From contig NC_135550.1 of NCBI RefSeq assembly GCF_964340395.1, positions 29,125,176 to 29,189,175 of the forward strand: a DNA stretch of 64,000 nucleotides, in the 5' to 3' direction. The DNA is from Glandiceps talaboti (lineage: Eukaryota > Hemichordata > Enteropneusta > Spengelidae). Below the pieces are notes generated by a model that saw only the letters and a program-made list of their open reading frames with translations, searched no databases and was not told the origin of the DNA. Both the position numbers and the translations under genes were made by a program. Positions 232 to 43,996 of the stretch are shown piece by piece; position 1 is the stretch's first letter; every line of letters starts with the position of its first letter.

Positions 232-2167
232 ATGGCAGAACCAGAAGAAAGCAAGGAAGGTGAAGATTTTACTCCTTTGAGTTATTGGAAAAGTGATTTA
301 CCAGCTCTCAGTCCTGATGATATCGAGACTATTGTCATTAGTGAAGAGACAAGTACAGCTGATGACACACTGCATGGAATCAAGAGATCTGAGGAGGATT
401 TGTACTGGCAGCTGAGGGCAAACAGAAATGATAGTAGTTTGGAAGACAATTCGCCAGACTCTCACAAGTCATTTACAGATGATGAACACTCATTGAAAAA
501 AGATGTACTGAATAAAAATAATGAAACTAGAAATTTACAAGCTGATCTTGGGCACAAAGAACATGATGGAGGAATGAATGAAATGCAGGTGGAAAATCAG
601 AATGAAGGAGAACGGAAAATGGAATGTGAAGGAAATTTGGAAAGTGTAAAAAAGATTAGAGAATATGAAACAAGGGAGTTAACAAGACAACGTCATGTAG
701 AGTGTTCAAGTACAACACAGACACCCGATTCTACCGGTAGCATAACAGATAAATATCAACAAAGTTTGAATGAATTTTACCAAACTCATGAAGAAATGAT
801 ACTATTAGGTGATGATGGTTTACCAGAACATGAGAATAATGAAGTAAATAGTTCAGAAAAAGGAGAAACCCGTGTAGAAGAGTGTAAAGATGTTGAACAC
901 AATGAGGCTGAGACAGGAAGAGAACGACTGAAGGATATAGCAGAGCAAACAGATTTGTGTGATGACAGGGTTCAGAAACGGAACATAGATTCTGTGTCAG
1001 AGAAGAGAACTGAGAATGTAGATATGATGCAAGGAGGCAATAATAAAGTAAGCAGGCCAGACAAGCTAGATCTACATACACACAGCATAACATCAATACC
1101 TGAATGTGATGCAGCAGCAAAATCAAATGAGGCAGAACTAGGTCATCTCAGTGATAGTATTCAGTACAAGATGAAATACAAAGCAATAAAAACAGAATAT
1201 CCCATAACTACAACTAGACACTTGGTGTCACCGACAACAGCTCCAGGATTTACCTTAGGATCACCTTTACTTGAACCAGGTTTAAAACGCAAGAAATTTG
1301 ACTCTGACAGTGCAATGACCTCAGCTCAGCTACCTACCCTACCTACAAAAACAGTGGAAAGTCTCAGCCAGAGAAGCCAATCAGACAGTGGTCCTCAGAA
1401 AACAAGAGTTGTGTTCAAGTCAGGCGGTGGTGGTGCAAGACTCAGGCGGAGAATGTCTCTGCAACAGATTCTCCAAGAAAATAATATGACAAACAATGTA
1501 AAGAGTAAAGTATGCCAGTTTAGTCATTCCTTGGATACAAGTGTCTTCTCGCCTACTGAGAGAACTTCACCAACAGAAACCTTCAAGTTTGGTAGGGAAG
1601 GGGAACAACCTCTTTTCACTATTGGAACATCACCAACTGATCATGAGAAAAAGCTTTTTGAACAGTCATCATCAGAACTTGAGGATAGTGTGTTTACCAC
1701 AAGTCCTGATAATGAAGAATCATCCAACACATTCACTACAGAAAATGTGCCCAGTAGAACAACTTCTCCGTCACACTCACCCAACAAAATGTATGATATA
1801 TCACCCCCCTCAGATAGGATAGGTGTACTTCCAAATTCTGAATCTCAACACTCGCCTTTTACTCTCATACATTCTCGGCCACAATCACTTCAGCCACTCT
1901 CAAACCAATACGACAGAGGGAGAGATCACAGTGCAGTCAGCAGACTCACAAAGACAAAATCAGTAGATCAAACACAGTTACCACCACGAACTGCAGCTAC
2001 GAGGCCTATGCTAGGCAGTAGAGATAGTAGACCCAGCTCAGGTTCATGGAAGAATCAATTCAAAAGCTGGCTGTTTGGTTCTAAGTCAATGGACATACCC
2101 CAAGAACTAAAAACTCCTGATAAGGTTGATGTCAAGATAAGTTTCAAAGACAAAGAGAAATTTGAAG
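232..2167 (+). CDS. FMN: FMN coding exon 1 (N-terminal region)
   Basis: The exon probably begins at 99, after a pyrimidine tract and cag, giving 133 nt of 5' UTR. It encodes residues 1-645: acidic, low complexity, no signal peptide or membrane segment, with a basic RRRMS patch near residue 405. It ends at AAG|gtaaga in phase 1, inside the DEP-like stretch. The open frame runs on past the donor to 2244 and is intronic there. Confidence 0.85.
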
Positions 2168-43000: not shown

Positions 43001-43996
43001 AAACAAATTAGAACGAACCACTTGGTTTCCTGTGGAGATGAAGATATGATAGTTTCAAGAAAGATAAATGCATGCCTACACAATCCATACAATTGGGATA
43101 AATAGATAGATGAACGGCTGACTGGCTGGCTGGCTGGCTGGATGGATGGATGGATGGATGGATGGATGGATGGATGGCTGGCTGGCTGGCTGGCTGGCAG
43201 GATGGATGGATGCATGGATGGATGGATGGATGGATGGATGGATGGATGGATGGATGGGTGGGTGGGTGGATGGATGGATGGGTGAATGGCTGGCTGGCTG
43301 GATGGATGGGTGGATGGACGGACGGACGGACGGACAGGCAGGCAGACAGACAGACAGACAGACAGACAGACAGACAGACAGAGAGACAGACAGACAGACA
43401 GACAGACAGACAGACAGACAGACAGACAGACAGACAGACAGACAGATAACCAGATGGAAATAACACTCTAGCAATGATCATACCTTGTATTTGTCTACCA
43501 GGCACACATGGATTAGGTGGCACTTCATACTTTTGAGAATCGATTTCTGGAACAGCCATTTGTGCATTTGGTATATTAGCTGGTCCTAGCTGCTGCTTGC
43601 CTTCGCCTGCTCCCCCTGAAAGTTAATCAACCACAACAAAATCGTTTTAGACCAGATCTTCAATATAATATGTCTTTATATGTAGTTTTCTTTATAGGCG
43701 GAGTCATCCACAGTTGAAATTATTATTTGAACTTAACTGTTTACATTTCCACTGCATATTTTCTATGTAATTAATGATGACGACATTACATTGTTCTAAC
43801 CTGATATGTACGTAAATGCTGGGATATGTAATTCGTTACTGTTTGTGTTCTCGTCTTCCCGTGTGCCGTAGTTGTACGCATCTTGTAGAAGCAGACTACG
43901 GAGTGCCATTCGATCAGCTGGTGAAAGATCTAGGCTGCTATATACCTGCACGATGGCAACACATATGAGTAACAAGGTGATCGTTACTTTAGCCAT
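39909..43996 (-). CDS. SCG5: 7B2 / secretogranin V homologue, PC2 chaperone, 7 coding exons
   Basis: 7B2 escorts proPC2 through the secretory pathway; its C-terminal peptide, once freed by furin, inhibits PC2 through a VVAKK motif. Exons on minus, 43996-43801, 43615-43484, 43029-42925, 42597-42479, 42314-42246, 40555-40523 and 40004-39909, join in phase to 249 aa. Seen: signal peptide ([15 protein letters not shown]), LGPANIPN (residues 75-82; human LGPFGNIPN), PPNPC (98-102), NENFVEYFQ (human AEFSREFQ), a furin-type RFAR (215-218), then [18 protein letters not shown] (human NPYLQGQRLDNVVAKKS). Odd: exon 3 is an extra in-phase 105-nt cassette inside the usual Cys-Cys segment, and exon 5 encodes a second VAKK (197-200). 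The N-terminal half is much diverged. Start chosen at 43996 (AAGATGG) because the upstream open frame has no other ATG. Poly(A) candidate on - near 39450. Confidence 0.85.
40523..40555 (-). CDS. SCG5: SCG5 coding exon 6 (furin-type site, 33 nt)
   Basis: Acceptor ttcattcatcag-like, donor AGG|gtaagt, phase 0 both ends. Encodes [11 protein letters not shown]; with the next Arg this gives RFARR, replacing the RRKRR furin site of vertebrate 7B2. Confidence 0.7.
40719..41366 (+). repeat. (CATA)n array in SCG5 intron 5
   Basis: About 650 nt of CATA units with cacg, ca and tgca variants, between coding exons 5 and 6. Overlapping open frames on both strands are artefacts of the repeat. Confidence 0.97.
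42246..42314 (-). CDS. SCG5: SCG5 coding exon 5, extra VAKK-type exon
   Basis: Acceptor gttttcttag, donor AGA|gtaagc, 69 nt, phase 0 both ends. Encodes [20 protein letters not shown] and SKR. It starts like exon 6 (NSY) and contains a VAKK like exon 7, with basic pairs on each side, so it looks like a shortened copy of the exon 6-7 unit. Confidence 0.75.
42479..42597 (-). CDS. SCG5: SCG5 coding exon 4
   Basis: Acceptor aaccttttacag, donor AAAAA|gtgagt, 119 nt, phase 1 in and phase 0 out. Encodes [18 protein letters not shown], aligning with human GCLENTPDTAEFSREFQ, and an acidic then basic stretch (KVYKK). Confidence 0.8.
42925..43029 (-). CDS. SCG5: SCG5 coding exon 3, probable cassette exon
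   Basis: Acceptor atctccacag, donor GCAA|gtaagg, exactly 105 nt, phase 1 both ends. Encodes 35 residues with three Cys (KCSC, DCVDP) that have no counterpart in vertebrate 7B2. Leaving it out joins [13 protein letters not shown] to VGCC, which restores the canonical spacing (human NPCPVGKTDDGC). Confidence 0.6.
43116..43446 (+). repeat. GGCT / GGAT / GACA compound microsatellite in SCG5 intron 2
   Basis: Fills about 330 of the 454 nt of the intron between coding exons 2 and 3: mixed GGCT and GGAT units, a GGAC patch, then about 28 GACA units. Its size probably varies between individuals. Confidence 0.95.
43484..43615 (-). CDS. SCG5: SCG5 coding exon 2 (LGP/NIPN and PPNPC motifs)
   Basis: Acceptor actttcag, donor CAAG|gtatga, 132 nt, phase 1 both ends. 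Contains two of the best-known 7B2 landmarks, the proline-rich PC2-binding PPNPC and the LGPxxNIPN region. Confidence 0.85.
43801..43996 (-). CDS. SCG5: SCG5 coding exon 1 (signal peptide and N-terminus)
   Basis: 65 codons plus 1 nt; donor TCAG|gttaga. The exon starts at 44046 after ttttctttcag, giving 50 nt of 5' UTR. Encodes the signal peptide, then [17 protein letters not shown], an amphipathic helix-like stretch at the place of the 7B2 N-terminal helix. Confidence 0.8.

Follow-up and report, generated by a model that had tools for sequence, protein, structure and literature searches.

A conserved neighbourhood of three unrelated genes was identified in a 64-kb stretch of the genome of the acorn worm Glandiceps talaboti (C2:29,125,176-29,189,175; assembly of 590 Mb in 47 contigs), referred to below as the window. 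Across ~44 kb of it, the formin gene FMN (+) is followed by Gremlin (-), which encodes a blocker of BMP, and then by 7B2/SCG5 (-), which encodes a neuroendocrine protein. We conclude, with a probability of about 0.87, that the window holds the unduplicated form of an ancestral RYR/FMN/GREM/SCG5/MTR neighbourhood, and the FMN-GREM-SCG5 grouping probably predates both vertebrates and their limbs. The vertebrate limb-deformity region is a textbook case in which the control DNA of one gene lies inside another gene, and the window is an unusually clear new instance of a conserved gene neighbourhood. The same order and orientation in a limbless hemichordate would date the neighbourhood before the vertebrate genome duplication and would make the acorn worm an outgroup for asking whether the shared regulation of FMN and GREM preceded limbs. 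The three genes are located as follows (window positions):

232..19417, plus strand: FMN-subtype formin, 15 coding exons, 1417 amino acids (spliced model)
FMN exons 1-8, plus strand: 232-2167, 3919-4070, 4488-4638, 6749-6810, 7435-8141, 8715-8856, 9240-9389, 15058-15137
FMN exons 9-15, plus strand: 15712-15841, 16083-16155, 16592-16665, 17123-17303, 17637-17781, 18158-18307, 19297-19417
30213..30782, minus strand: Gremlin, single coding exon, 189 amino acids, signal-peptide-like start, DAN match at E=2.1e-38
39909..43996, minus strand: 7B2/SCG5, seven coding exons, 249 amino acids (spliced model, relatives and profile match)
SCG5 exons, minus strand: 43996-43801, 43615-43484, 43029-42925, 42597-42479, 42314-42246, 40555-40523, 40004-39909

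All 14 introns of the FMN model are of the GT-AG type, and its exons join into a single open frame with an FH2 domain at residues 974-1364 (Pfam, E=4.6e-79). Relatives were compared among the best 120 of 4013 formin matches and the best 120 of 537 gremlin matches. The closest relative of the window formin was a cappuccino-like protein of Ptychodera, with echinoderm formins and amphioxus FMN1 ranking next, and all informatively named relatives were annotated as formin, formin-like, formin-1/-2, FMN1 or cappuccino-like, with scores of 547-1105 bits. Non-FMN formins of known structure scored at most 146 bits, a value obtained from another database and over another scored region than those of the relatives. 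Judged by protein similarity, the gene is best assigned to the FMN subtype, being nearer to FMN than to the other formin subtypes. Its C-terminal tail aligned with the tails of other FMNs; this segment is presumably the Spire-binding one. A genome search with the part from FH2 to the tail placed all 11 listed matches inside the window gene, and FMN is firmly regarded as single-copy in this genome. The list of FH2 matches in the genome at E 0.001 misses the window FMN, the exons of which score low singly, while the search with its own protein recovers the gene; the FH2 list contains a strong formin match elsewhere on the same chromosome, at C2:16.1 Mb.

Two further features of the FMN gene were observed. 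A DEP-like domain spans residues 634-740 (end of exon 1 and exons 3919-4070 and 4488-4638) with a Pfam DEP match of E=5.7e-4 and 20.2 bits, which lies below the Pfam cut-off of 32.7 bits; a DEP match at E up to 1 was present in 6 of 17 FMN sequences. The profile of this domain, built from seven invertebrate FMNs including that of the window, matched the other four invertebrate sequences tested at 40-125 bits, and six vertebrate FMNs at 14-21 bits, apparently via the linker after the domain. In addition, a tandem array at window positions 19354-20362 consists of 58- and 73-bp units derived from the last FMN exon, so that the sequence coding for the end of the FMN protein, with its stop codon, recurs along the 3' region. 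The word DEP is absent from the main text of the one formin paper searched (PMC5047451).

The solved structures closest to the window Gremlin were those of Gremlin-1 and Gremlin-2 (163-168 bits), NBL1 scoring 56.6 bits at most, and all of its informatively named relatives were gremlins. Comparison of the protein with its family thus identifies the DAN-family gene of the window as a Gremlin and not NBL1. Among ten DAN places in the genome it was the strongest, with 132.6 bits, followed by one of 100.7 bits on C7. There, a second DAN gene (C7:14,480,161-14,480,463) also matched Gremlin structures best (77 bits vs 55 for NBL1), and the copy number of Gremlin is therefore likely rather than proven to be one. 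The C7 gene may be Cerberus-like. A DAN-family tree of 20 sequences had long branches, with 12 of its 17 inner branches open and the gremlins unresolved, and nothing here rests on it.

The six introns of the SCG5 model are all GT-AG, and the model is identical to the NCBI protein LOC144452945 isoform X2 of Glandiceps over all 226 residues of that isoform, with one exon skipped. The protein is 67-69% identical to a Saccoglossus protein named secretogranin 7B2-like and has a close relative in Ptychodera as well. When a profile of four hemichordate sequences was compared with 18 PF05281-bearing proteins, the two aligned over 165 columns with a probability of 99% (E=8.8e-18), sharing the SGGAGEGKQ stretch, PPNPC, two VAKK motifs and a YLDG stretch before the last VAKK. 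We take PPNPC and the C-terminal VAKK inhibitor motif to have their familiar roles. On the strength of this profile homology, the third gene is taken to be 7B2/SCG5, a protein that would be expected to bind PC2 and activate it. The results bear out the arrangement of FMN on the plus strand and Gremlin and 7B2/SCG5 on the minus strand proposed in the first-pass annotation, with spliced models for FMN and SCG5 and a DAN match for Gremlin; likewise, in the matches listed, the three models led to FMN-type formins, to gremlins and to hemichordate 7B2-like relatives, respectively.

Exon 5 of SCG5 (42314-42246, -) carries the first VAKK motif. Since NCBI isoform X2 does not contain this exon, it is probably subject to alternative splicing. 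Two VAKK motifs were also seen in three inspected PF05281 proteins (P0004, P0007 and P0016).

The flanks of the window extend the neighbourhood. The ryanodine receptor (RYR) was searched for because of the human neighbours, whereas methionine synthase (MTR) was met while the flank was being read. Transmembrane exons of RYR were found with Pfam at C2:28,766,210-28,767,323 (+), ~0.36 Mb to the left of FMN, and one of these two exons matched 39 solved sequences, all of them (39/39) ryanodine receptors. To the right of SCG5, a syntaxin-5 (STX5) exon precedes MTR (C2:29,203,982 to 29,220,328, +), which is 34.8 kb from SCG5, start to start; all Met_synt_B12 matches in the genome (4/4) lie in this gene. 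The span from RYR to MTR is 454 kb, or 0.077% of the genome.

In human 15q13, if FMN1 is turned rightward, GREM1 and SCG5 presumably both point leftward, and we take RYR3 to adjoin FMN1 on 15q. On this assumed orientation, the window resembles the vertebrate limb-deformity region (Fmn1-Grem1-Scg5) in its three genes and in their order and relative orientation, as the first-pass annotation had claimed; SCG5, GREM1 and FMN1 are neighbours according to published work (PMC8455560; PMC4788144). The acorn-worm locus differs from that region in its compactness (~44 kb), in its single-copy FMN, in the gene nested in an FMN intron, in belonging to a limbless animal, in the distance of RYR and in the presence of STX5 and MTR beyond SCG5. 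The other human region, 1q43 (MTR-RYR2-CHRM3-FMN2-GREM2), is similar to the window in the linkage of RYR and MTR and, presumably, in the tail-to-tail arrangement of FMN2 and GREM2. It differs in that MTR is on the other side, presumably beside RYR2, and in the lack of SCG5; this presumed absence agrees with the earlier proposal that the GREM2 side had lost SCG5. According to one report, MTR, RYR2, CHRM3, FMN2 and GREM2 all lie inside a single 116-gene copy-number variant in human (PMC7854697).

With RYR and MTR on opposite flanks, the locus provides a clean test case for the origin of two human regions from one. Markers of both human daughter regions, namely SCG5 of the 15q side and MTR of the 1q side, interleave on one stretch of the acorn-worm genome, human positions being partly assumed. 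Both sit beside one block, as would be expected if a single block had been duplicated and its copies had then lost genes. The ancestor shared by hemichordates and chordates would already have carried the block; a 15q copy (RYR3-FMN1-GREM1-SCG5) and a 1q43 copy (MTR-RYR2-FMN2-GREM2) would then have arisen by genome duplication, and later losses would have removed SCG5 from one copy and MTR from the other. The view of one ancestral block, duplicated in vertebrates and still single here, is thus supported by RYR and MTR as to the duplication, and as to singleness it is firm for FMN and likely for Gremlin.

Linkage in other animals was also considered. In Saccoglossus, the gremlin and the 7B2-like protein were both assigned to a contig of 486,688 bp, and in Ptychodera, FMN and 7B2 were both assigned to a contig of 41,862,543 bp; because the contigs are of equal size, this suggests that GREM and 7B2 are linked in the former and FMN and 7B2 in the latter. 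An informal check of vertebrates, given as examples and not as a full count, showed gremlin-1 and formin contigs of equal size in Hemitrygon, Scyliorhinus, Electrophorus, Bombina and Bufo gargarizans, with the exception of Salarias (30,603,455 vs 26,030,347). The matches listed included crinoid gremlins and echinoderm FMNs without their linkage partners, and no entry among them was a Saccoglossus FMN, a Glandiceps FMN or a Glandiceps Gremlin. In the pearl oyster Pinctada imbricata, a single gene model (P0256) contains a whole FMN and then Gremlin; the two genes thus seem to share a strand there, with Gremlin immediately beyond FMN. Since this bivalve model has both genes side by side, the adjacency of FMN and GREM probably reaches the protostomes and is older than the rest of the block.

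The linkage of FMN and GREM outside vertebrates is already published (Roch and Sherwood, 2014; PMC4079206). That paper describes a scaffold of the limpet that carries Grem and SOSD; genes including DAAM, Lgmn and FMN are common to it, to two scaffolds of amphioxus and to three chromosomes of human. The CLG11 linkage described there for limpet, amphioxus and human resembles the window in joining FMN and Grem; it differs in that the portion seen names DAAM, Lgmn and FMN and not SCG5, RYR or MTR, covers no hemichordates and refers to two scaffolds in amphioxus rather than one. What seems to be new is the triple that includes SCG5, along with RYR and MTR: a literature search of titles and abstract openings, which scarcely covered subscription papers, returned no invertebrate report of FMN-GREM-SCG5.

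Several observations weigh against an ancestral five-gene neighbourhood. The second RYR exon was matched by Pfam and by no solved structure, and TTC7-like and calmodulin exons separate RYR from FMN, so that the two are not direct neighbours. The order is not fully kept, MTR being on the SCG5 side here and, as we assume, beside RYR2 in human. The Gremlin-like DAN gene on C7 weakens the single state of Gremlin, not the block itself. Shared contigs in the other hemichordates were deduced from equal sizes, without distance or order, and in Ptychodera they signify the same 41.9-Mb chromosome only. The co-stranded Gremlin of Pinctada indicates that the orientation is not universal, and the joined model may contain errors. 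Finally, the window SCG5 scored 12.4 bits with Pfam 7B2 (PF05281), below the cut-off of 25, which is a model threshold and not a defining biological feature. This low score, along with cysteine-bearing exons that are presumably extra relative to vertebrate 7B2, would suit a third gene that is a 7B2-like paralogue and not the SCG5 orthologue, leaving only FMN-GREM truly conserved. We consider this very improbable in view of the 99% profile match to PF05281-bearing proteins, with two VAKK motifs and YLDG in common, and of the 7B2-like name of the Saccoglossus relative. An exon-level Pfam search of the genome for 7B2 gave no other match, but it also missed the window gene and all 14 control genomes (0/14) and cannot show that another 7B2 is absent. 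It is extremely improbable that the three genes were assembled independently in hemichordates: nothing was found in favour of such convergence, a span of 454 kb contains five markers drawn from two sister regions of the human genome, and the orientation of FMN-GREM-SCG5 equals that of 15q13 as we take it to be. We retain the single ancestral neighbourhood as the best explanation of the data.

Why the block persisted was considered in the light of the vertebrate locus. In mouse, Grem1 and Fmn1 have a common cis-regulatory landscape with Grem1-like limb enhancers in the topologically associating domain (TAD) of Grem1; a conservation plot of this TAD includes Fmn1 exons, and Scg5 lies outside it (PMC8455560). 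In human cells, the GREM1 domain takes in parts of SCG5 and FMN1 (PMC4788144). Gremlin regulatory DNA in the FMN-GREM gap and in the FMN introns may be the likeliest mechanism of retention, at odds that fall just short of even. Rearrangements parting Gremlin from its regulatory DNA would be selected against, and SCG5 and the flanking genes would remain as passengers, the genome being slow to rearrange. Such an explanation would fit FMN-GREM and would be weaker for SCG5, which is the least explained part: with Scg5 lying beyond the TAD of Grem1 in mouse, Grem1 enhancers alone do not explain SCG5. The likeness to genomic regulatory blocks with bystander genes (Irimia et al., 2012, as cited in PMC4079206) consists in the position of a developmental regulator beside an unrelated large gene. 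A more specific scenario, which we consider rather unlikely, is that FMN introns held Gremlin enhancers in the ancestor of acorn worms and vertebrates, that limbs added elements, and that SCG5 belonged to the domain until the mouse boundary arose. If this were true, the regulatory landscape of Gremlin that serves digit formation in vertebrates would be an inheritance from bilaterian ancestors.

Passive retention, in which the ancestral block survived through slow rearrangement in hemichordates, chordates and some molluscs with no functional constraint, is a serious rival and a credible possibility, somewhat below an even chance. It is serious because genes without a known regulatory tie to Gremlin (RYR, TTC7-like, calmodulin, STX5 and MTR exons) also stayed close, and the position of mouse Scg5 outside the TAD is in keeping with it. 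However, FMN and GREM adjoin in human, mouse and acorn worm and in the bivalve gene model, and mouse genetics places genuine regulatory DNA of Grem1 in an interval that overlaps the 3' part of Fmn1 (PMC8455560; PMC4788144).

The remaining features between and within the three genes are as follows:

10700..12646, minus strand: nested gene, partial, apparently a single-pass membrane protein, in FMN intron 9390-15057 (upstream exons not included)
19418..30212, no strand: FMN-Gremlin gap of 10.8 kb with 3' ends facing (tail to tail); seven open reading frames (ORFs) of 94-171 amino acids, none with a Pfam match
30783..39908, no strand: Gremlin-SCG5 gap of 9.1 kb, rich in simple repeats; three ORFs of 113-136 amino acids, none with a Pfam match, and many others of low complexity

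The first-pass annotation had reported no other confident gene between the three. This holds for both gaps, where no gene was recognised: none of the ten gap ORFs of 94-171 amino acids had a Pfam match at E<=0.01, the searched set leaving out repeat-rich ORFs and those under 90 amino acids, so that small exons may escape. It does not hold within FMN, an intron of which contains the nested gene on the opposite strand; the partial spliced model of that gene has a hydrophobic segment and a long tail, as judged by eye. An Rfam scan of the whole window returned no matches.

On the left flank, minus-strand exons without a convincing Pfam match adjoin FMN, and they look to us like mitochondrial IF-2. 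Upstream of SCG5, a two-exon gene at window positions 55230-54038 (-) encodes an acidic, apparently secreted protein of 232 amino acids with no Pfam matches. Beyond it, an ORF at window positions 55790-56520 is flanked by inverted GGACAAACGCCCC-like repeats, noted by eye, and resembles what we take to be a piece of a MULE-type transposase.

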